From assembly GCF_040436365.1 (NCBI RefSeq), contig NZ_AP026369.1:310001-374000 (forward strand): a stretch of 64,000 bases of DNA, read 5' to 3'. A program made the position numbers and the translations under genes. This document shows positions 1 through 9,889 of the stretch, piece after piece; within the stretch, counting starts at the first letter, position 1, and every line of letters begins with the position of its first letter. The stretch is from Hydrogenimonas sp. SS33 (GTDB lineage: Bacteria > Campylobacterota > Campylobacteria > Campylobacterales > Hydrogenimonadaceae). The notes under the pieces were generated by a model. That model did no database searches, was not told where the DNA came from, and saw only the letters and a program-made list of their open reading frames with translations.

Positions 1-1
1 C

Positions 2-610
2 AACGTCTCCCTCTACAACGAAACCAACGGCGTCAGTGTCTTCCCCACCCCCACCATCGGCATGGTGGGACTCAACGATTCACAGGAAAAGGTGCTTCCC
101 TCCTGTTTTCAGGAAGAGGGCGACGCCCTGCTGCTGGTGGGCGAAACCAAAAAGGAGTTCGGCGGCAGCCTCTACATGAAAGAGCTCTTCAAAACCGTCG
201 GCGGCAGACTGCCTGACATCGACTACGACAAAGAGCTGGCGCTGTGGGACCTGGTCATCGAAGCCAACAAAAAAGGGCTGCTCAAAGCGGCAAAAGACCT
301 CAATGTCGGCGGCCTCGCCATCGCTGTAGCGAAAATGGCCGTCGTCGGCGGCAAAGGTGCCGAAGTGGATGCCGACCTGGGAGAAAACGTCAACATCTTC
401 AGCGAAAGCTTCTCCCGCGCGCTTCTTGAAGTGGCGCCCGAAAACGTCGAAGCCGTCACACAGATGGCCAAAGAGCGCGGCCTCGCATGCCAAAACGTCG
501 GCACCGTCGGCGGAAACCGCGTGAAAATCAACGACGTCCAAATGCCGATGTCACAGCTGGACGACCTCTACTACCACACCTTCAAACGCATCATCGAACA
601 GGATATCTGA
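2..610 (+). CDS. purL: Phosphoribosylformylglycinamidine synthase II, C-terminal part
   Basis: This is the 3' end of PurL, which converts FGAR to FGAM in purine synthesis using glutamine-derived ammonia. The open frame runs from the window edge. It begins NVSLYNETNG, followed shortly by PTPTIGMVG, the conserved segment near the start of the last AIRS-type ATP-binding domain of PurL. The C-terminal AIRS_C-like half follows, with a GGL-type stretch and a GTVGGNRVKI strand near the end. About 200 residues are visible of roughly 730 usual for the family; the rest lies upstream. A second purine gene, purH, lies in the same direction 7.7 kb downstream, and the integron sits between them. Identity is near certain; the start is outside the window. 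Confidence 0.93.
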   Translation, partial: NVSLYNETNGVSVFPTPTIGMVGLNDSQEKVLPSCFQEEGDALLLVGETKKEFGGSLYMKELFKTVGGRLPDIDYDKELALWDLVIEANKKGLLKAAKDLNVGGLAIAVAKMAVVGGKGAEVDADLGENVNIFSESFSRALLEVAPENVEAVTQMAKERGLACQNVGTVGGNRVKINDVQMPMSQLDDLYYHTFKRIIEQDI

Positions 611-632: not shown

Positions 633-1604
633 TCACATATCAAGCGGACTCATCACTTTCGCCCGATTCATCTCGGCAACAACATGGGTATAGATCATTG
701 TGGTTTCTACGCTTTTATGCCCCAGTAGCTCCTGGATCGAACGCAAGTCGATGCCGCTTTGCAGCAGATGGGTGGCATAGGAGTGGCGGAATATGTGGGA
801 AGTGATCCGCTTGTTGATTTTGGTTTTTTGAGCTGCCTGCCGAATATTTCTTCCAAGTGTCGCTTCCAATATATGATGTCTGCGGACGATGCCGCTTCTA
901 GGATCGCGTGAAACCTTTCTCATGGGAAAAAGATACTGCCATTTCGTTTCAAATTTCGCATTTGGATATTTACGATCCAGACGATGAGGCAGTTCCACGC
1001 TTCCGAATCCTTGTTTCAGGTCTTCTTGATGAATCGCCCTCACATTCTCGATCTGGATTTTGAGTTCTTCTTTGATCGATAACGGCAAAGGCAATGTACG
1101 GTCTTTTTGACTCTTGCTCTCCCAAAAATAGATGGTGTTAAAGCCGAAATCGACATCTTTTATGCGCAGATTGAGTACTTCACTCATACGCAATCCGCAT
1201 CCATACATGAGTTTGACAATCAGGCGATAGATACCGTCAAGATTGGCGATCACGCTCTGGACCTCTTCACGAGTCAATACCACAGGAATGTGTTTGCGCT
1301 CTTTGGCTCTCAATGCCTGAATGTTCCAATCACTTATATCGATACCGAGGACCTCCCTATAGAGAAAAAGCAGCGCGCTGAAAGCCTGGTTTTATGTCGT
1401 AGGTGAAACGTTCTGCTCTGCCGCCAACCAACTGAGAAACGACTCGATTTCTGCTTTTCCCATATGAATAGGATGCTTTTTATCATGGAAAAAAATGTAG
1501 CGTTTGACCCCCCCGATGTAAGAGCGTTCCGTCTTGAGGCTGTAATGTTTGAGTCGTATTTTGTCACGAACCATATCGAGAAGCTTCTTTTTGATCGGTG
1601 CCAT
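633..1604 (-). pseudogene. intI: Integron integrase (tyrosine recombinase), interrupted by an in-frame TAA
   Basis: Reading from the ATG at 1604 gives a 323-residue tyrosine recombinase in one continuous frame except for a TAA at 1394-1392 (codon 71). The N-terminal SAM-like core-binding part has RLKHYSLKTERSY; the catalytic part has [24 protein letters not shown] and [14 protein letters not shown], so both Arg, both His and the Tyr nucleophile are present. The insertion [13 protein letters not shown] ... [12 protein letters not shown] is the domain that distinguishes integron integrases from other phage-type recombinases. The stop falls in [12 protein letters not shown], where relatives usually have Gln (TQNQA), so a single CAA to TAA change explains it. 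A good Shine-Dalgarno, AGGAGG, precedes the ATG. No other lesion is visible, so the mutation looks recent. Confidence 0.9.
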
Positions 1605-1861
1605 TTCTACCTCCTGATAGCAGTATATTTTGTCATGCTATTGAATTTCATGGTCATTATCACGACAAAATGTGTTGATAACGGCTGAAAAATCAATAGC
1701 AAGACATTATGAATACGGAGAAATATTAGTGAAAAATGGTAAAATGGACCCAGAATATATCAATTTCTAAATTTATTTGAAATAGCACAACATTTTTTGT
1801 GTTTTGTTATTCGCAGTGGAACGGAAGATTAGGTATAATTTTTTCACACAATAAATAGTTA
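1605..1861. other. intI upstream region and presumptive attI
   Basis: This 257-bp AT-rich, gene-free stretch lies between the intI start and the first cassette, where attI and the cassette promoter are expected. It contains an 8-bp inverted pair, ATTTTGTC (about 1629) and GACAAAAT (about 1665), flanking the intI promoter region; on the minus strand a TATACT hexamer lies just upstream of the intI ribosome site. It ends in ACAATAAATAGTTA (1848-1861), whose GTTA may be the attI crossover point. The third base of the core (GTTAGCT) departs from the GTTRRRY consensus, so the exact attI position is uncertain. Confidence 0.5.
1834..1839 (+). promoter_or_regulatory. -10 box of a possible cassette promoter (Pc)
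   Basis: A perfect TATAAT lies 38 bp before the GTG start of the first cassette gene and points into the array. No convincing TTGACA-like -35 hexamer is visible about 17 bp upstream (the region reads TTCGCAGTGG). By position it matches the Pc promoter of integrons, which drives promoterless cassettes. Assignment is by position and the -10 sequence only. Confidence 0.45.
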
Positions 1862-1876
1862 GCTCAAGGGGAATAC

Positions 1877-2482
1877 GTGACGTCATTCGTAGCGTTTTGT
1901 GAAAACCCCAAGTGTGGAGCCGTCTTTGAGGTTCCTATTCTTGTTGGTGGTCCTGGTAACGCCACTATCCACATGACAAATACGAGAGCAGGGCCATGCC
2001 CTGTATGTGGGTCATTCGGTCTTATTCCGGACGGTGTTTATCAATATGCCAATCACGCAGTTTCATTATTAACTGGCCCTGAAACATCAGTTCGTGTTTT
2101 ACGGCAAGTCTATGAAATATTAAAGCGTGCGAAATCAACGTCTGAAGATAAGCAAGCAGTTTTAAAAGAAGTAGAGGAAGTCTCGCCACAGGCCGCACAA
2201 ACTTTACAGCAAGCACCAGAAATCTCCAACTATCTTCAGTGGATAACAGTTTTAATTGCCTTGGTATCTCTCGCTATACAAGTTCATACTTCCTACTTCA
2301 AAGGCGATGATGTTGAGAGACAATTTCGCGATCATCTCCTAGAAGAGAATAAAGAGTTAAGGAAGCAGAGAAAAAAATCGACTCCCTACAAAAGAGAAAA
2401 TCCCAAAATACGGAGGAACGACCCTTGTCCCTGCGGCAGTGGCAAGAAGTACAAAAAATGTTGTGGTTTAACGCAAGTTTAA
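1877..2482 (+). CDS. Cassette-borne zinc-ribbon, membrane-anchored SEC-C motif protein
   Basis: 201 residues from a GTG start with AAGGGG upstream. Cys8/Cys13 and Cys41/Cys44 form a zinc-ribbon-like N-terminus; residues about 119-140 are a single hydrophobic helix; a charged helix follows; and the C-terminus (180-197) is a SEC-C motif, [17 protein letters not shown], with four zinc-binding Cys. SEC-C tails occur on SecA and on many accessory proteins, where they bind zinc and mediate protein contacts. The rest of the protein is not recognised and no enzyme motif is visible. The gene is markedly AT-rich compared with the surrounding core genes and is followed 2 bp later by an attC site, so it is the first cassette of the array. 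Function unknown. Confidence 0.75.
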
Positions 2483-2483
2483 G

Positions 2484-2543
2484 AGCTAACAAACCCATCA
2501 AGCCGACGCAAAAAATCTGCGCGGCTTATGGGGAACGTTATGT
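2484..2543 (+). other. attC recombination site of cassette 1
   Basis: The site begins AGCTAACAAACCCATC and ends GGGGAACGTTATGT. Its inner arms AAGCCGACGC and GCGCGGCTT pair with the usual unpaired bases, and CCCAT pairs with ATGGG. The outer cores are GCTAAC (2485-2490) and GTTATGT (2537-2543, fitting GTTRRRY). Length (60 bp), spacing and sequence closely resemble the well-known aadA-type attC. It starts 2 bp after the SEC-C gene stop. Confidence 0.88.
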
Positions 2544-2564
2544 AAAGAGATAAAAAGGCGCAAT

Positions 2565-2639
2565 AGGGGCCAAATGATAACAATAACACAAGCCTATTAT
2601 CGATAAACTTTCACATGTCATTCTTATCATCTGACCCCT
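2565..2639. repeat. 16-bp imperfect inverted repeat pair
   Basis: AGGGGCCAAATGATAA (2565-2580) and the complement of 2624-2639 (AGGGGTCAGATGATAA) match at 14 of 16 positions, separated by 43 bp. The pair lies between the first attC and the DUF3298 gene, at the left edge of the non-cassette block. The AGGGGTCAGA wording recalls, from memory only, sequence found beside some REP-associated transposase genes; no transposase is present. It could equally be a regulatory or terminator-like structure. Confidence 0.5.
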
Positions 2640-2688
2640 AAAATCTTTCTAAAAATCCCTGATTTTAAATTTTTACATCGAGGACATT

Positions 2689-3960
2689 ATGCAGAAATTT
2701 TATCTATATCTGCTTTGCTTCACGACACTGCTTTTGGCAAAGAGTCCCTATCTCAATCCCTACACAGCATCCGAGTTGCCCAAAATCACACTTCAGGCGT
2801 TTGTGTGTAGTAAAGACAATATGTTCTGTATCGAGAAGAAGCTCTCAACCTATGATCCTCATGAAGCATCCTTCCCTGCCGAGTTTGCGCCTTTTCGCTC
2901 TCTCTTTGCCCGCCAGGTCGAAGCCTATTATGATGACGACATCCGCGCCGAACTGGCATCGGACCGCAACGATACACCCGACCTGAGCGGAAACTACTAT
3001 CGTCACACCGACACCTCTTTGTTCGCACTTACTCCTACGACTCTGACGCTTCAGTATGAACGCTCATCGTATGAAGGCGGAGCGCATGGCAACTATGGCA
3101 TTGCCTACGAGAACTTTCTAAGAAGCAATGCTGCACCTGTGACACTAAAGAAGCTCTTCAAGCCAGGCACACACAAAAAGCTCCTTGCCGTTGCCGAGCG
3201 CTATTACCGCCTTGCCTACAACATACCGGATGATCAAAATATGCGGTATGACGGCTGGTTTGATGCATCGTTCACCCTTGCCGAGAACTTCGCCATCACT
3301 CCCAACGGACTGCTCTTTGTTTACAACCAGTACGAGATCAAGCCCTATGCGGCGGGTCTGACACGCTTTTTGCTCCCCTATAGCGCCATAGAGAGCCTCA
3401 TAGACCCAAAAGGCGCACTCGCCTTTGTGCGCCGACAGTCCCATACAACCCAACACTACACTTTCCGCGAAGATCCCCTTACCCTGACGCTTGATGTCGC
3501 ACAGACAAAAGATGTGATCGACCTCAATGTCACCTTGCGCAGCGACACATGCACACGCTCAGGCAACTGGCTCTCCCTCTCTTTTCCCCAACTGCACAGC
3601 AAGAAAGCCCTGCTTGCTGCCGACTATAGCCGTTTCCGGCAACTTGCCACCTACGATACACACGACAAGCTCTACAACAGGCAACTGCACAAAAACGTGC
3701 CGGCTCGTTATCTGCTCGTCGAGGCTCGGCAGCCAACCGTATACCCCAACACCCTCTACACGATGCACATCCGTCTCAAAGCCCCGAAAAACCTTTCTCC
3801 TCTCATCATTGACTTGCGTGCCCTAGCCAAGACCAGAGAGCGCACCTATACCGCCCCTTACGACTACGACGGTACACGCGGGCAGCAGGGGTATCAGAAC
3901 TACCGGGTGCTGTTTGATCTACATGAGATCAGGAAAAAAAACCAAGGTTCCGATCGTTAA
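2689..3960 (+). CDS. DUF3298-domain exported protein
   Basis: 423 residues. A hydrophobic N-terminus (about 1-17, ending LLLAKS) is a likely signal peptide, so the protein probably acts in the periplasm or outer envelope. Residues 130-137 read GGAHGNYG, followed by a region with LKKLFKPG and then NFAITPNGLLFVYNQYEIKPYAAG, the characteristic pattern of the DUF3298 (RsiV C-terminal-like) family. The C-terminal 130 residues are not recognised. GC content is close to that of the host core genes and unlike the AT-rich cassettes. No attC follows it, which argues against it being a cassette. Its 3' end overlaps the convergent DUF1501 remnant by 32 bp. Role unknown. Confidence 0.75.
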   Translation: MQKFYLYLLCFTTLLLAKSPYLNPYTASELPKITLQAFVCSKDNMFCIEKKLSTYDPHEASFPAEFAPFRSLFARQVEAYYDDDIRAELASDRNDTPDLSGNYYRHTDTSLFALTPTTLTLQYERSSYEGGAHGNYGIAYENFLRSNAAPVTLKKLFKPGTHKKLLAVAERYYRLAYNIPDDQNMRYDGWFDASFTLAENFAITPNGLLFVYNQYEIKPYAAGLTRFLLPYSAIESLIDPKGALAFVRRQSHTTQHYTFREDPLTLTLDVAQTKDVIDLNVTLRSDTCTRSGNWLSLSFPQLHSKKALLAADYSRFRQLATYDTHDKLYNRQLHKNVPARYLLVEARQPTVYPNTLYTMHIRLKAPKNLSPLIIDLRALAKTRERTYTAPYDYDGTRGQQGYQNYRVLFDLHEIRKKNQGSDR

Positions 3961-4405
3961 AGCTCTTGAGATTTGGGAAAATCGCATCGAGGTCACTCTC
4001 CGCTATACCCAGCCATGCGGCCAGAGTCGCCAGATAACTCTCCATAGCAATCGTCGGCACGAGACGGTCATGCCATGCATCGGGTGAGTCGGGCTCTATG
4101 CGGGGTATGGTGCCGTAGATGCGGCCACCTTTGACCGCACCGCCCATCACGAAGGCATGCGAACCCCAGCCATGGTCGGTTCCCGCACCGTTGGGACTGA
4201 GGGAACGACCGAAGTCCGAAACGGTGAAGGTCGTCACCTGATCGGAGAGGCCCATCTCGTCGAGCGCTTTTTGGAACGCTCCGAGCGACCGGCTCAGATA
4301 GCCTGCCTGATGCTCATTGTCGCTGTCGTGGGTGTCCCATCCGTGCTTATTGACGAAAAAGATCTGCCGTTTGGGGTGACCGGGGAAATTCTCTTTCACC
4401 GAGAG
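3929..4405 (-). pseudogene. Truncated DUF1501-family protein (C-terminal third only)
   Basis: About 157 residues align with the end of DUF1501 proteins: QIFFVNKHGWDTHD, then VTTFTVSDFGRSL, TDHGWGSHAFVMGGAVKGGRIYG and YLATLAAWLGI. Members are normally 400-500 residues and exported, often paired with a DUF1800 gene. Here the 5' two-thirds is missing: upstream of codon ILSVKENF the sequence becomes an A/T-rich promoter region for the divergent lipoprotein and reaches a stop at about 4420. There is no signal peptide or ribosome site. It is a remnant created by deletion or insertion at about 4405 and marks a recombination junction in the block inside the integron. Confidence 0.75.
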
Positions 4406-4446
4406 AATTTTTTTATTTTATTTTTGATGATTAATAAAATTTAAGT

Positions 4447-4473
4447 TATAATGCTAATAAAATAAAAAGGAGG
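4447..4473 (+). promoter_or_regulatory. -10 box and strong ribosome site of the propeller lipoprotein
   Basis: TATAAT at 4447-4452 and AAGGAGG at 4467-4473, six bases before the ATG, give a self-contained expression signal. The sequence between 4406 and 4466 is nearly all A/T. The gene having its own promoter is unusual for an integron cassette and supports independent origin of this block. Confidence 0.5.
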
Positions 4474-4478
4474 GCAAC

Positions 4479-6557
4479 ATGGCATTCGAAAAATCATTTA
4501 TAACAGCATGTATGACCTCTGCTGTTCTAATTCTTTTGGGATGTGGTGGTTCGGGTAGTTCTGAAGCATCTGGTGGTTCTCGTGGTTCTACAATATTAGC
4601 CACTGCGAAATTGGGAAATCTGGCAAATGCCAATGTTACTATTTACAAAGTAGAAGACAATGGCACACTTGCCTCTTTATGGAGTGAAACAACAAGTAGT
4701 GGTAAAACTCTTGGAGAGATTGGAAAATTTGATAGCCATGTGGATGATCTTAACGATACGGATATTTACCTTTATGAAGTAGAAGGTGGAAAAGATTGGG
4801 ACGTGAACGATACAGGTGTTATGGATCCTAATTATACAATCAACAAAGGAATAATTAGAGCTATATCATCAGGGAGTGAAATAAAAGCTGCTGCAAACAA
4901 TTTTATAGTCTCTTTTGCTACGGAGATTTTGTATGAACAAGTTTCTAAATCCATAAAATACAACTATGATAAAACCAATTTTCAAACACTGCTGCAAAAT
5001 AACATAAGTAAAGTGGTAGGTGATGTAAATGGCGATGGAAAAGTAGATATGCAAGATATTCTAACATTTGATCCATCACAAGATAAGCAAGAGTTGACTG
5101 ACTCATACAGGTCAAATTTGCAAGCCATATTAGATGCCATTCATAATGGTAAAACTCCTACTCCCAATGCGTCTGTGTGGGCAAAGACTTATTCGTGGGG
5201 TAATGAGGCCAAAGCTGTACAGCAGACTCACGATGGTGGATATATTGTAGCAGGAACTGGTGATGCCTATCAATATGTTTTGTTATTGAAACTTGATGAA
5301 ACTGGAAATGTCACATGGCAGAAAGGGTATGCAGGCAATGCCTGTACTGATAGGTTTGGCAACGAAGCGGTTTCAATTCAACAGACATCGGATGGAGGCT
5401 ACATAGTGGCAGGAAATGATGTCTGTTACGGGGCTGGTCAAGACGATATCATCGTACTGAAACTTGGAACAGATGGCAGTGTGCAATGGCAGAAGACATA
5501 TGGCGGAATTGATAATGATGTAGCATATTCAATATCCCAGACTAGTGATGGGGGGTATATTGTCTCCGGATATAATTTTAATTTGGATGATAAAGGTTTT
5601 CGTGTACTGAAACTCAATTCAACCGGCGGTATTGAATGGCAGAAAATTTATGGAGCAACAGGAGCTTTATTCACAAAAAAGATTGATGCTCCAGGATATT
5701 TAACAAAAACCAGTGATGGAGGCTTCATTGTAGCAGGTCAGGGATCAGCAGGTGATGTAAATGATGGTACTGGTGGAATTAAACTTTTGAAACTTAATTC
5801 AAGTGGAGGTATTGACTGGCAGAAATGTTATGTCGTAAAAAACAATAAAGGAGGGCAGGATTATATTGGAGATTCTGTTGTACAAAATGGTTGGCCATAT
5901 TTTATCCAGCAGACATCGGATGGAGGATTCATCGTATCGGGTGTAATACACTTACAGAAAAATGGTGATGCCAGTCATGATTACTATGCAATGTGGTTTC
6001 TAAAAGTCGATTCGGGTGGCACAATTGAATGGAACAAAGTTTATGAAGGATATGCTGATGTAAGCTATATCCCATATAGTATTAGGCAGATTGACAATGG
6101 TTATATCGTGGCTGCCACAAGCGGCTCAAATGCCAATGGTGCACCTCAAGATGCTCTAATCTTGAAGCTTGATTCATCAGGAAACATCGTATGGCAGAGG
6201 ACTTACGCAGGGCCTTACGATGCAAATTACGATGATCGAGTTTATTCCATTCAGCAAACCGCCGATGGAGGTTATATTGTAGCCGGCGAGACGGTTTCCT
6301 ATGGTAAATGGGCTCATCGAGATATGACTTTGTGGGTATTGAAGCTCGATGAGAAAGGGGATATACATCAGGGGCAAGGCTATTGTTCTGTTGAGAGCTC
6401 ACGAGGCACTACTCTTTCGCCTGTGGATGCGAACATTAGTACAACTGATTCCGCCGTTGAGGCAATAGATAGCAATATAACGACTCAGGATGTAGATGAG
6501 CCAGGTGTTATATCGCAGGACAACTCGGTGGATTCACATTGCAATATGGAACAGTAG
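4479..6557 (+). CDS. Lipoprotein with dockerin-like motif and seven-repeat beta-propeller
   Basis: 692 residues. The N-terminus has a lipobox, LILLGC (Cys22), followed by a Gly/Ser-rich linker, so the protein is probably anchored to the outer membrane. Residues about 36-110 are a beta-rich domain. DVNGDGKVDMQD (182-193) is a calcium-binding dockerin/EF-hand-like loop. From about 237 there are seven copies of a repeat built on WQK.YGG ... QQTSDGGYIVAG ... LKLD..G, one carrying the degenerate form QIDNGYIVAA. Seven such repeats fit a seven-bladed propeller. Composition is AT-rich, unlike the flanking core genes, suggesting transfer. A clear terminator follows. Likely a surface or secreted binding protein; ligand unknown. 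Confidence 0.8.
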   Translation: MAFEKSFITACMTSAVLILLGCGGSGSSEASGGSRGSTILATAKLGNLANANVTIYKVEDNGTLASLWSETTSSGKTLGEIGKFDSHVDDLNDTDIYLYEVEGGKDWDVNDTGVMDPNYTINKGIIRAISSGSEIKAAANNFIVSFATEILYEQVSKSIKYNYDKTNFQTLLQNNISKVVGDVNGDGKVDMQDILTFDPSQDKQELTDSYRSNLQAILDAIHNGKTPTPNASVWAKTYSWGNEAKAVQQTHDGGYIVAGTGDAYQYVLLLKLDETGNVTWQKGYAGNACTDRFGNEAVSIQQTSDGGYIVAGNDVCYGAGQDDIIVLKLGTDGSVQWQKTYGGIDNDVAYSISQTSDGGYIVSGYNFNLDDKGFRVLKLNSTGGIEWQKIYGATGALFTKKIDAPGYLTKTSDGGFIVAGQGSAGDVNDGTGGIKLLKLNSSGGIDWQKCYVVKNNKGGQDYIGDSVVQNGWPYFIQQTSDGGFIVSGVIHLQKNGDASHDYYAMWFLKVDSGGTIEWNKVYEGYADVSYIPYSIRQIDNGYIVAATSGSNANGAPQDALILKLDSSGNIVWQRTYAGPYDANYDDRVYSIQQTADGGYIVAGETVSYGKWAHRDMTLWVLKLDEKGDIHQGQGYCSVESSRGTTLSPVDANISTTDSAVEAIDSNITTQDVDEPGVISQDNSVDSHCNMEQ

Positions 6558-6697
6558 AAATTTATTTACTTTAATAGAATGCCAAATTATAAGGGAATGA
6601 CTTACAAACGATAAAATCGGTTTTGGTTTGAATAAGGTCTCGAAACTGTTCAGCGAGAAGGAAAATGCATCAGTTCGGAACCTTTCTGAGGAGGAGG

Positions 6698-6730
6698 AAG
6701 GGAAGTTGAGAATTTCGGCTTCCCTTTTTT
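6698..6730 (+). terminator. Rho-independent terminator after the propeller lipoprotein
   Basis: AAGGGAAG (6698-6705) pairs with CTTCCCTT (6719-6726) around a 13-base loop and runs into TTTTTT (6725-6730). It lies 141 bp after the stop codon. The rest of 6558-6830 is AT-rich and holds no gene that I can see. Confidence 0.65.
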
Positions 6731-6830
6731 GTTTGAGCCTGTAACTCACTGAACTGCCATAAAATTTAAGTTCAATTCCAATTAAAGATAGTGTATATTA
6801 TCACTTTGATTGTACAATAAATAGTTATCA

Positions 6831-7419
6831 ATGCAAAAGGAATTCGAAACTAATAAGTTACTAAAAAGTAAAACCTTGCATGTCTTTGATTTACTGATGA
6901 ATGAAGAGGGCTTTGCTGACTTTAGTACTGAAGTAAAAAAATTAAATAAAAAAATACCTCAAGTTTATGTCCATGTATGTGTTGATAAAATTTGTAAAAA
7001 TCAAATTTTAAGAATTGGAAAAGCAACAATTGGTATTATTGAACGATGGATAAAAGTTCTTCTGGGCATGGAAGTACATTTTTATGGTCTATCGGCGAAT
7101 CTCAGAAATATAGAAATTATTCCTACAGATGCCCAAATTATTTAGTATTTTTTGCAGAGCTTTATAATTTACATACTAAATTATATGTTTTAGATTGTGG
7201 ATCAAAAGAAGAAATGAATCATATCGAGAAGCAACTCATTCATTATTTTAATCCAATTTGGGAACAGTTTAAATTACAAATCAAAAAATATCTAAGTGAA
7301 AATAAACCATAAAAGATTTAGTTGTTCGACATGGTGAAGCAAAAAAAATTGTTTTTGAAAATTCAAGAGATTTACCAAATATTAAATCGTTTAAAAGTGA
7401 TCACAAGTGGGGAAGTTGA
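6831..7419 (+). pseudogene. GIY-YIG-like nuclease cassette gene, frameshifted
   Basis: Two overlapping frames make one protein. The first (from ATG 6831) reads PQVYVHVCVDK ... ILRIGKATIGIIERWIK; the second picks up at SSSGHGSTFLWSIGES ... YPNYL-like CPNYLVFFAELYNL ... EKQLIHYFNPIWEQFK to 7312. Joined at the ATAAAAGTT run near 7055, this resembles GIY-YIG-type proteins: the V.RVGKA core, an HGSTF segment, and a late Glu in an I.HYFNP..N-like helix. One missing A in the run restores the frame. A third frame, 7306-7416 (KDLVVRHGEAKK ... FKSDHKWGS), ends just before attC and looks like the original C-terminus, implying a second slip near 7300. Both sites are A-rich, so sequencing error is possible. 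AT-rich, with attC at the 3' end. Confidence 0.65.
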
Positions 7420-7483
7420 TAACAAAACATTGGAGAGAAATATTTGACCTCCGATCAAATATTTCTCATTTTAGTCGTTAACC
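7417..7483 (+). other. attC-like site of the GIY-YIG cassette
   Basis: GATAAC (7418-7423) and GTTAACC (7477-7483) form the outer cores. Inside them is a perfect 13-bp inverted repeat, GAGAAATATTTGA (7435-7447) and TCAAATATTTCTC (7455-7467), around a 7-base loop. The cores deviate from RYYYAAC/GTTRRRY by one or two bases, and the stem lacks obvious bulges, so it is a weaker match than the other two sites. Its position directly after one AT-rich gene and directly before another supports attC over a terminator; there is no T-run on the plus strand. Confidence 0.6.
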
Positions 7484-7504
7484 GTATAAAAAGAGAATCA
7501 GGAA

Positions 7505-8215
7505 ATGGATATACAAACAATAGTTGCTGATGCAACCGAAGAAACAGCTAAGGATGCTTTGCGGTACTTTCTGGAACACTACACAAGCCCAGCATTTGGC
7601 GCCTTACCCAGAAATGAGGTAGAGCTTGTCGTTCTTAATGTATTAGAAAAGCTTGGTGCTATAGACGGAGAGCCTGAGGTTTACGAGCTGGTCTCAAAAC
7701 TACGAATAACCAGATCAAAAGCAAGAAACCTCATCTATGCTAGGGAGCTTAGAAAATCAACAGAATCCGATCTTGATGAAAAGGTAAAGGCCTTATTAAA
7801 GAAGCCGCTTATCCAGAAGAATGGAGAGTTATATACACTTGAGGTAGAAAATCCTCTTGTCTCAGACCATTTAAGGGATAAAGTCAAAAAGCTTGGGTAT
7901 GTGTCAGATGGATCTTTTTCTCCCAGTATAGTGAAGCTTGGTTTAGATGCAGTATCAGCATTGGTTGAATCATACCTATCGGAACAAGAAAGGGAACAAG
8001 TAAAAGCCGCACTGATTGAGGCAGGGGCACCTGATACATCATTTAAAGGTGTCTTAAAGGCTACATTCAAGAAGGTGGCAAGCAAGGTCGCTTCTGAGTC
8101 TGGGGAGGCGTTGATGGATAAGGCATCAGAGTTCTTCAGTCCCATCGTGGATGCTGGGATTGAACAAATAACTGAACGTGTACAGGGGCTGTTTGAAGGC
8201 GAGAATCACGGCTAA
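7505..8215 (+). CDS. Cassette-borne protein of unknown function
   Basis: 236 residues from ATG 7505, with AGGAA five bases upstream. No known domain is recognised. The first 110 residues look helical (ATEETAKDALRYFLEHY, VYELVSKLRITRSKARNLIYAREL) and may include a helix-turn-helix-like segment, which is inference. The C-terminal 80 residues are amphipathic helices rich in Ala, Lys and Glu (YLSEQEREQVKAALIEAG, ATFKKVASKVASESGEALM). There is no signal peptide or membrane segment, so it is probably cytoplasmic. The stop codon TAA lies inside the R'' core of the following attC, typical of cassette genes. Composition is AT-rich relative to the host. It may be a two-domain adaptor or defence-type protein, but nothing visible proves this. 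Confidence 0.7.
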   Translation: MDIQTIVADATEETAKDALRYFLEHYTSPAFGALPRNEVELVVLNVLEKLGAIDGEPEVYELVSKLRITRSKARNLIYARELRKSTESDLDEKVKALLKKPLIQKNGELYTLEVENPLVSDHLRDKVKKLGYVSDGSFSPSIVKLGLDAVSALVESYLSEQEREQVKAALIEAGAPDTSFKGVLKATFKKVASKVASESGEALMDKASEFFSPIVDAGIEQITERVQGLFEGENHG

Positions 8216-8279
8216 CAATGTGCTCGTGCGTGATGCTTCGCCGCAACGCGGCTCGCGCAGCACAACTTCAGCGTTAAAT
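8210..8279 (+). other. attC recombination site of the last cassette
   Basis: The cores are GGCTAAC (8210-8216) and GTTAAAT (8273-8279, fits GTTRRRY). The inner arms TGTGCT-C-GTGCG and CGCGC-AGCACA pair with one bulged base, the usual attC arrangement, around a GC-rich loop containing a secondary CGCCGC/GCGGC pairing. Length is 70 bp. It is the right-hand end of the array; host sequence with the purH promoter follows. Confidence 0.88.
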
Positions 8280-8320
8280 CACACCACATCAAAATAATCT
8301 CACCATAAACACAAAAAAGC

Positions 8321-8356: not shown

Positions 8357-9889
8357 ATGCGTGCATTGATCAGCGTGAGCGACAAGACGGGTGTGGTGGC
8401 GTTTGCCAGGGGGCTCGAGAAACTGGGTTTCGAGATCGTTTCGACGGGCGGGACCTACAAGATTCTCAGGGAAAACGGCATTCATGCCATCGAGATCGAC
8501 GAGGTGACGAAATTTCCGGAGTGTTTCGAGGGGAGGGTGAAGACGCTTAACCCCTACATTCACGGCGGCATTCTGCACCGGCGTGACAAGCAGAGCCATC
8601 TGGAGCAGGCCAAGGAGCTGGGTGTGGAGGCGATCGACCTGGTCTGTGTGAACCTATACCCGTTCAAGGCGACGATCGAGCGGACCGACGATTTCGAGGA
8701 GATCATCGAAAACATCGACATCGGCGGGCCGGCGATGGTGCGCAGCGCGGCGAAGAATTTCGACAGTGTCATCATCGTCACCGATCCTTCCGACTATACG
8801 CCGGTGCTTGAAGCGCTCGAAAGCGGCAACAATACGCTCGAGATGCGCCGGAACCTGATGATCAAGGCGTTCGAGCATACGGCCGCCTACGACAGCATGA
8901 TCGCCAACTACATGAACCGCCGCTTCAACGAGGGGTTCGGCGCGAAGCAGTTCATCGTGGGAAGCAAAATCTTCAACACCCGATACGGCGAAAACCCCCA
9001 CCAAAAGGGTGCGCTCTACGAATTTGACGACTTCTACACCAAAAACTTCACGACCCTCAAGGGCGAAGCGAGCTTCAACAACCTCACCGACATCAGCGGC
9101 GCGGTGAAGATCGCGGCGGCGTTCGGCGATGAAAACGCCGTCTGCATCGTCAAGCACGGCAACCCCTGTGGCTTCGCCATCCGCGACAATCTGGTCGACG
9201 CCTACACCGAAGCGCTCAAGTGCGACCCGGTGTCGGCCTTCGGCGGTGTCGTGGCGGTCAACGGCACGGTGGACAAAGCGCTGGCGGAGAAGATGAACGA
9301 GATTTTCCTCGAAGTGGTGATCGCCGGGCGCATTACCCCCGAAGCGCAGGAGGTCTTCGCCTCCAAGAAGCGCATCAAACTCTTCGAGTTCGGTGCCGAC
9401 CGGCTGCTCGTGAGCGACGACGCCTACGACTTCAAGCATGTCTCCGGCGGTTTCGTCTATCAGGATGCCGACAAGGTCAAAGACGAAGAGGTCGCGAACG
9501 CCGAGCGCAAGAGCGAGCGCAAAGCGACCGGGCAGGAGAAAAAAGATATGGAAATCGCCTGGAAGGTGGCGGCCCTGACGAAGTCCAACTGCGTCGTCTA
9601 TGTCAAAAACGCCGCCATGGTCGCCGTGGGCATGGGGATGACCAGCCGCGTCGACGCGGCGCGCTGTGCGCTGAAAAAGGCCGAAGAGATGGGGCTGGAC
9701 GTCACCGGCGCGGCAATGGCCAGCGAAGCCTTCTTCCCTTTCCGCGACTCCATCGACGCGGCGGCCGCCGCGGGCGTGAAGGCGATCATCGAGCCGGGCG
9801 GGTCGATCCGCGACGACGAAGTGATCGAAGCGGCCGACGAACACGGCATCGCCCTCTACTTTACGGGTGTGCGCCACTTCCTCCATTGA
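8357..9889 (+). CDS. purH: Bifunctional AICAR transformylase/IMP cyclohydrolase
   Basis: 510 residues, the usual length. It catalyses the last two steps of IMP synthesis. The N-terminal MGS-like IMP cyclohydrolase domain opens [11 protein letters not shown] with [10 protein letters not shown] and [15 protein letters not shown]. The transformylase domain begins near residue 197 ([13 protein letters not shown]) and carries KHGNPCG with Lys266 and His267, the residues known to act in formyl transfer. The C-terminus [13 protein letters not shown] is typical. The ATG at 8357 is preceded by AGGAC. purL is the previous core gene in the same direction, so the two were probably closer before the integron arrived. 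Confidence 0.97.

Follow-up and report, generated by a model that had tools for sequence, protein, structure and literature searches.

Does the chromosome of Hydrogenimonas sp. SS33 carry a resident integron between purL and purH, and is that integron still complete? The locus occupies positions 633 to 8279 of a stretch of 64,000 nucleotides (the window; NZ_AP026369.1, positions 310,001 to 374,000 of the forward strand), in which a first-pass annotation had described an integrase gene with the IntI-specific insertion, three attC-like palindromes and cassette genes without a recognised role. We consider it very likely that the sedentary chromosomal integron of the window is decaying. Its genome (G000, 2.25 Mb) has three integron platforms, and the window's own leader and attI are platform A. 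For the phylum Campylobacterota, our best reading is that intI was lost repeatedly and that platforms made of promoter, attI and cassettes persist. Decay is favored because of the IntI profile and tree, the stop codon in the gene, the attI and attC models and the complementarity of cassette boundaries measured against a control, and because platforms B and C lack intI and each have at least one cassette at 0 mismatches, with intI relics in two congeners (G409 and G410) and at 8 of 43 sampled sites in the phylum.

A stop-bearing integrase of the Campylobacterota IntI clade

The window integrase matched TIGR02249 over its whole length with 418.9 bits, against a cut-off of 265, and contains the extra region that we take to be the mark of IntI, as the first-pass annotation had proposed. 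In the tree it falls inside a Campylobacterota clade of 37 rows that is separate (96/99; bootstrap not settled) from IntI3 and from two further IntIs, of cyanobacterial and gammaproteobacterial origin. These three are the only IntIs from outside the phylum, and one row was dropped as too short. A 38-residue Arcobacter fragment grouped with the Xer outgroup. The phylogeny suggested as a check thus places the recombinase within the IntI clade and not outside it, and profile and tree together rule out a non-integron recombinase. The Campylobacterota IntIs compared are 61-73% identical to the window IntI over aligned lengths, and the closest named integrase, with 84% identity, is the open IntI of Nitratifractor sp. 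S013_45. A scan of viral contigs returned a single match, a recombinase with 23% identity.

A complete integron has an expressible, intact intI, whereas that of the window carries an in-frame TAA at codon 71. Because of this stop the integrase is very probably dead. A resident chromosomal integron with an IntI of the Campylobacterota clade is therefore present, as had been claimed, but it is not intact.

The attI site adjacent to intI was recognized with R1, a sequence-only model of 36 sites, obtained from 40 by leaving out the window's own site and three divergent intI-linked ones (L002, L090 and L091). R1 scores positions 1772-1861 with 34.1 bits (E = 1.3e-8 in 404 kb). The common core, AATAAATA followed by GTT, or a one-base variant of it, ends the DNA upstream of intI at 32 of the 35 loci with an intI or an intI fragment; for the three exceptions (L004, L009 and L015), the sequence available upstream of intI was no longer than 226 bases. 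Across the phylum the attI core hardly varies, and a -10-like TATAAT lies at a near-fixed distance from the crossover (alignment A2).

Cassettes and attC sites

Cassettes were delimited by the rule that the start of a cassette is complementary to R'' of its own attC, with 1000 starts as a control. Of these, 228 reached a score of 17, 110 reached 19, 16 reached 22 and 2 reached 22 with 0 mismatches; the initial chain threshold of 17 was too loose, and the strict chain demands a score of at least 22 and 0 mismatches. For attC1, R'' fits the start of its cassette at 1858 without a mismatch (score 26.4), and attC2 fits the start at 6824, also with 0 mismatches (23.2). When run from 2537, the end of cassette 1, the chain script reaches the stem of attC2 with 1 mismatch, a link that we take as chance because the start at 6824 fits attC2 without any. 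Bottom-strand folding gave z scores of -4.85 for attC1, -3.73 for attC2 and +0.17 for attC3.

A second model, R2, was built from 31 attC sites of other genera, selected by length from 57 loose-threshold sites; some of them may be false because of this origin. They align as one rather homogeneous family, about 69 positions long (alignment A3), which attC1 and attC3 do not match. R2 recovered attC2 with 52.2 bits (E = 3.6e-9), so the three sites are not all rejected by models, and in the same search of the window attC1 and attC3 were not matched. Complementarity with its control and the folds, together with the R2 match for attC2, rule out chance for attC1 and attC2. Both are firm, whereas the third of the palindromes first proposed is weak: attC3 is supported by its R''/R' letters and its position at the extreme end of the insert, and is plausible only. 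Likewise, the idea that the genes of the insert are cassettes holds for cassettes 1 and 2, which are bounded, and not for positions 2537-6823, which are not demonstrable cassette DNA. For the two reading frames of cassette 2, there was no Pfam or PHROG match, and no PADLOC match for ORF 6831-7145. The coordinates of all features are collected in Table 1.

Table 1. Features of the purL-purH locus, in window coordinates (ORF, open reading frame; MITE, miniature inverted-repeat transposable element)
Feature	Position	Strand	Evidence
purL, C-terminal part, left flank	1..610	+	ORF 62-610 vs NF002290: 124 bits, model positions 538-722 of 723
intI pseudogene, integron integrase with single in-frame TAA (codon 71, 1392-1394)	633..1604	-	TIGR02249
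intI leader and attI; -10-like TATAAT at 1834 (possible Pc); crossover G at 1858	1605..1858	+	R1 model; promoter by inspection
Cassette 1, ORF 1877-2482 with terminal SEC-C motif (42 bits)	1859..2536	+	start/R'' 0 mismatches
attC1, one-base bulge in stem	2484..2543	+	complementarity, fold
Possible MITE, short element with inverted ends TAGGGGCCAAATGATAA and TTATCATCTGACCCCTA	2560-2645		by inspection
DUF3298-domain protein, no attC found downstream	2689..3960	+	PF11738, 62 bits
DUF1501 gene relic, C-terminal third	3929..4399	-	91% identical to residues 294-454 of full gene
Lipoprotein-like ORF, about six delta-60-like repeats	4479..6557	+	TIGR02608 29 bits, under cut-off 76.5
Second, truncated attI core ACAATAAATAG, start of second array	6814..6824	+	pattern rarity, position
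Cassette 2, ORFs 6831-7145 and 7046-7312 in different frames	6825..7476	+	start/R'' complementarity
attC2, type common in phylum	7417..7483	+	R2, fold
Cassette 3, ORF 7505-8215, no family	7478..8272	+	1 mismatch, 19.3, under strict cut
attC3, weak candidate	8210..8279	+	1 mismatch, score 19.3
purH, right flank	8357..9889	+	NF002049, 680 bits

Integrase-less platforms in the same genome and genus

The leader-attI of the window, about 250 bp long, has two more copies in G000: B (G000:C1:381791-382021, 69% identical) and C (387903-388150, 68%), which are 87% identical to each other. No IntI over the cut-off lies beside B or C, and the sole such IntI of the genome is the one at A. Downstream of platform B are two cassettes that end in an attC, one scoring 27.6 with 0 mismatches and the other 23.0 with 1 mismatch; platform C has a single such cassette (22.8 with 0 mismatches). 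The cassette of C (G000:C1:388336-390072, L120:337-2073) encodes a type I-C retron reverse transcriptase (PADLOC RT-Toprim_I-C, 614.5 bits) and is closed by a 56-bp attC; it had no Rfam match near the gathering score. A weak match to the attC model far from the three platforms (G000:C1:266460-266526, 27.9 bits, E = 0.02) may be a lone cassette site.

Among the 18 genomes of the genus, G000 is the only one with an IntI over the cut-off. IntI fragments occur at other places in G409, G403 and G198, one in G198 lying at a contig end and maybe cut by assembly, and eight genomes have an R1 attI at E ≤ 0.01, that of G401 being weak (1.7e-4). The platform beside nspC, which is B in G000, is common to G000, G409 and G410. 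On alignment inspection, its leader adjoins short intI 5' relics in G409 and G410, and no relic was seen beside that of G000; the relics of G409 and G410 are differently deleted, which indicates repeated loss of intI. At a threshold of 1e-6, no cassette protein of this platform matched between G410 and G000. We do not take these cassette differences as proof of activity in trans, since G409 and G410 keep intI relics.

The leaders also carry a motif that is locus-specific, present in several copies in many of them and different between species, with similar spacings from the intI start to attI; in platform B the repeated motif is TGTCATGCTATT. At window:1605-1858 and in related leaders, the copies that lie between intI and attI are both direct and inverted. 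In many single leaders, the repeats of the motif were no better than in shuffles. A best inverted pair was found in 19 of 29 phylum leaders versus 11-13 in the shuffled sets, of which there were only six, and these counts are not independent because the leaders are related. The repeats could be IntI binding sites or an operator, which we mention as a lead only.

A conserved attI across Campylobacterota

We searched 397 Campylobacterota genomes for both components. An IntI over the cut-off was present in 34 of them (36 matches, 5 with stops), and R1 matched 131 genomes at E ≤ 0.01 and 95 at E ≤ 1e-6. These 95 comprise 30 with an IntI over the cut-off, 10 with a partial IntI only and 55 with neither; many are drafts, in which intI may be lost at contig breaks. 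In the single-contig subset (n = 31), the corresponding numbers are 7, 1 and 23. Since 28 of the 36 R1 training sites come from IntI-bearing genomes of the set, these match by construction, and only two of the 65 genomes without an IntI over the cut-off (G144 and G198) gave training sites. Four of the 34 IntI genomes had no attI match at 1e-6 (G217, G286, G330 and G390). All R1 matches listed for families f2 and f3, save G335, were weaker than 1e-3 (internal control). At E ≤ 0.01, the 95 genomes hold 301 attI matches, 188 of them in genomes without an IntI over the cut-off.

We then sampled 40 regions around strong attI matches that had no IntI match next to them. Most of these regions come from single-contig genomes, and together they contain 43 attI sites. 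In the DNA fetched, an attC lies downstream of 30 of these sites (10 by the strict chain, 29 by R2), and neither method found one downstream of the remaining 13. The 1.6 kb upstream of eight sites holds an intI relic of 20-50 residues, seven distinct relics in all because two sites share one. Seven sites lack the GTT at the crossover, and for this reason are no longer standard attI (for example AATAAATAGATG). This core replaces AATAAATAGTT at L182, L193, L206 and L207, with identical following bases in three of the four, as if one DNA start had been joined to different platforms. R2 gave 49 matches in the sampled regions, 4 of which are opposite-strand echoes of stronger ones; the other 45 are all on the strand of their own attI, and the one at L201, 4991 lies upstream of that attI.

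The purL-purH locus in relatives

The integron lies between purL and purH, as first described, and the proposed comparison with relatives showed the two genes only 22-78 bases apart in four congeners (G397, G124, G398 and G402). Three others have wider gaps: G403 with about 0.4 kb, G409 with 1.9 kb and G410 with 9.7 kb. The gap of G410 contains an attC-like site (28.4 bits), and no intI was found in it. The remaining genomes of the genus gave no purL match in the DNA fetched upstream of purH (among them 11.9 kb for G144 and ∼13.8 kb for G399; several contigs end there). In G409, a truncated intI (L089:582-1320, G409:C153) adjoins an antisense purL fragment of ∼105 bp, 60% identical over 35 residues, and the full purL end is on a different contig. 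By blastn, DNA shared with relatives picks up again near 8289-8295. The G+C content is 0.57 for purL, 0.60 for purH, 0.46 for intI, 0.30 for the leader and 0.28-0.44 for the three cassettes. No Rfam match near the gathering score was obtained for the region. A piece of 27 bases of the possible MITE is 89% identical in G410 (L079 8253-8279).

The attC-less stretch and alternative explanations

Three things are missing from the first-pass annotation: what the stop codon implies, a second attI core (6814-6824) and the lack of any attC found over the 4.3 kb of 2537-6823. G000 has three copies of the pattern AATAAATAGTTR, the second core and platform B among them, and none of its reversed control. 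Model scores of the second core are weak (6.6 bits and E = 0.74 with the first attI hidden Markov model; 11.8 bits and E = 0.12 with R1), and for this reason it rests on its exact position at the start of cassette 2 and on its rarity; left of the crossover G, it has 10 bases in common with attI A and 11 with attI B. We take it to be a truncated second platform or the outcome of an event that joined a short attI piece to a cassette. Alternatively, 2537-6823 would be a cassette of the attC-ORF-Delta attI type, as in class 1 and 2 integrons, a possibility to which we give about one chance in four. Its bounds fit: attC1 lies on one side, and on the other the attI core is preserved over 10-11 bases to the left of the crossover, near the -8 to -12 classes given in the relevant passages of PMC12901181. 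The unit, however, contains a DUF1501 relic whose full-length counterpart lies in the purL-purH gap of G410, and part of the 4.3 kb is therefore local chromosome; moreover, 4.3 kb with two long reading frames is large for a cassette. A truncated second platform is favored because G410 has a comparable attI', with about 60 bases of leader, directly after an insertion sequence. The DUF3298-domain protein of the stretch was matched in 2 of the 18 genus genomes, G000 included, and the lipoprotein-like frame has six copies each of repeats D1 and D2. Two attI sites separated by 0.4 to 3.3 kb also occur in other genomes (L211:4499-5033, L185:4925-8356, L143:5028-7628 and L191:4609-5570), so paired platforms are not unique to G000.

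That the locus is no integron at all, its recombinase being a XerC/D-like pseudogene among chance palindromes, would agree with attC3 folding no better than shuffles and with two of the three attC sites going unmatched by R2. The IntI-specific profile and tree, attI and attC models trained elsewhere, and a cassette-boundary complementarity that the control reaches at a rate of 2 in 1000 leave this explanation with next to no probability. A different reading accepts the integrons and proposes that the dispersed intI-less platforms serve, or served until recently, as targets in trans for a single integrase per genome or for transferred integrases. An attI core that is near-invariant while the phylum IntIs have diverged from the window's, the large share of attI matches in genomes without an IntI over the cut-off and the unmatched nspC cassette proteins of G410 and G000 all speak for it. 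Yet the relics beside the nspC leader in two species indicate that intI once lay in cis, and cassette turnover may therefore predate its loss; G000, besides, has no intact IntI. We regard use in trans as unlikely, somewhat more so than the Delta-attI cassette.

Decay of a sedentary integron therefore remains our preferred reading, and several observations weigh against it. Cassette DNA does not account for the stretch 2537-6823, and the recognisable attI above the second core amounts to only about 11-14 bases. attC3 fails both the folding and the R2 tests. The stop codon, known from the assembled sequence alone, could be an assembly error. Finally, at 35 of the 43 intI-less sites no intI relic was found over 1.6 kb of upstream DNA, which leaves decay unproven for them.

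A possible course of events

In integron recombination, IntI acts on a double-stranded attI and on attC as a folded bottom strand, and exchanges the two. From what can be read in the sequence (IntI membership, the stop codon, attI, the boundaries of cassettes 1 and 2 and the intI-less copies), we infer a loss of activity, use of the promoter and an order of events. A live IntI would have cut the bottom strand of folded attC sites, with circular cassettes inserted at attI, and the promoter embedded in attI would transcribe the first cassette just downstream. intI would then have gained its in-frame stop, because of which the array is probably frozen, and the promoter-attI-cassette part may remain usable for expression. 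In the phylum, intI would have been lost by stops or deletions, with leader, attI and cassettes kept, perhaps through expression from the embedded promoter.

Relation to known systems and significance

The first-pass annotation had regarded an integron in this phylum as unfamiliar. Integrons in Campylobacterota, dead integrases and truncated-attI cassettes are already in print: the phylum is among those listed in a section of PMC8618304, and Sulfurimonas and Sulfurovum appear in Table 1 of PMC10295459. Portions of other papers put inactivated integrases at 43-46% (PMC3108266) and describe inactive arrays in Xanthomonas (PMC12444791), lost integron systems in Treponema (PMC3607928) and clusters of attC sites lacking integron integrases (CALINs) as degraded integrons (PMC9024848). 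In its treatment of attI, the last calls the site poorly described and not detected outside class 1 integrons, and surveys lean on intI and attC because of this. In a search of the openly licensed literature, where a lack of hits is no proof of absence, Nitratifractor and integron occurred together only in PMC10295459, "orphan attI" was not found, and neither was any description of a conserved Campylobacterota attI with an excess of integrase-less platforms. Nothing was found there that combined three of the topics CALIN, attI, integrase loss, integron degradation and multiple integrons.

The nearest sedentary chromosomal integron is that of Nitratifractor sp. S013_45 (L237), whose leader is 70% identical over 251 bases, with the attI core ACAATAAATAGTTA and, by inspection, an attC-like site ending its first cassette. 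It differs in having an open intI, whereas in the window a stop-bearing intI lies between purL and purH; its neighbours are presumably genes resembling luxS, pssA and ftsH.

Among published systems, the Xanthomonas integrons, as excerpts of PMC12444791 present them, share repeated inactivation or deletion of intI with cassette arrays left behind, but they lie in ilvD and secD neighbourhoods, whereas here there are several platforms per genome at varied loci, found via the conserved attI. CALINs, as defined in part of PMC9024848, likewise have cassettes without intI, but platforms B and C retain leader and attI; against the two-attC default given there, B has two (the second with 1 mismatch) and C one, below the default. 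The Delta-attI cassettes of class 1 and 2 integrons, in the relevant part of PMC12901181, likewise have, within an array, a short piece of attI that stops at the crossover, and the attI2 core AATAAAATGTT reported there resembles AATAAATAGTT; here, however, the integron is sedentary, and local chromosomal DNA lies between attC1 and the attI piece.

The window locus itself is thus of a known kind. More notable, and worth following, are the phylum-wide attI and the excess of integrase-less platforms in G000 and across Campylobacterota, where genomes with an attI platform at E ≤ 1e-6 number 65 without an integrase over the cut-off against 30 with one (397 sampled). The conserved attI offers a direct route to measuring integron death, to finding short cassette arrays that surveys of intI and attC may miss, including one with a defence retron, and to testing the use of orphan platforms in trans. 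It is conceivable, if improbable, that the many scattered and mostly integrase-less platforms, whose crossovers are near-identical across the phylum, form a distributed integron, serving as interchangeable landing and expression sites for cassettes in the presence of any related IntI. If so, integrase and platform would be inherited and lost separately.

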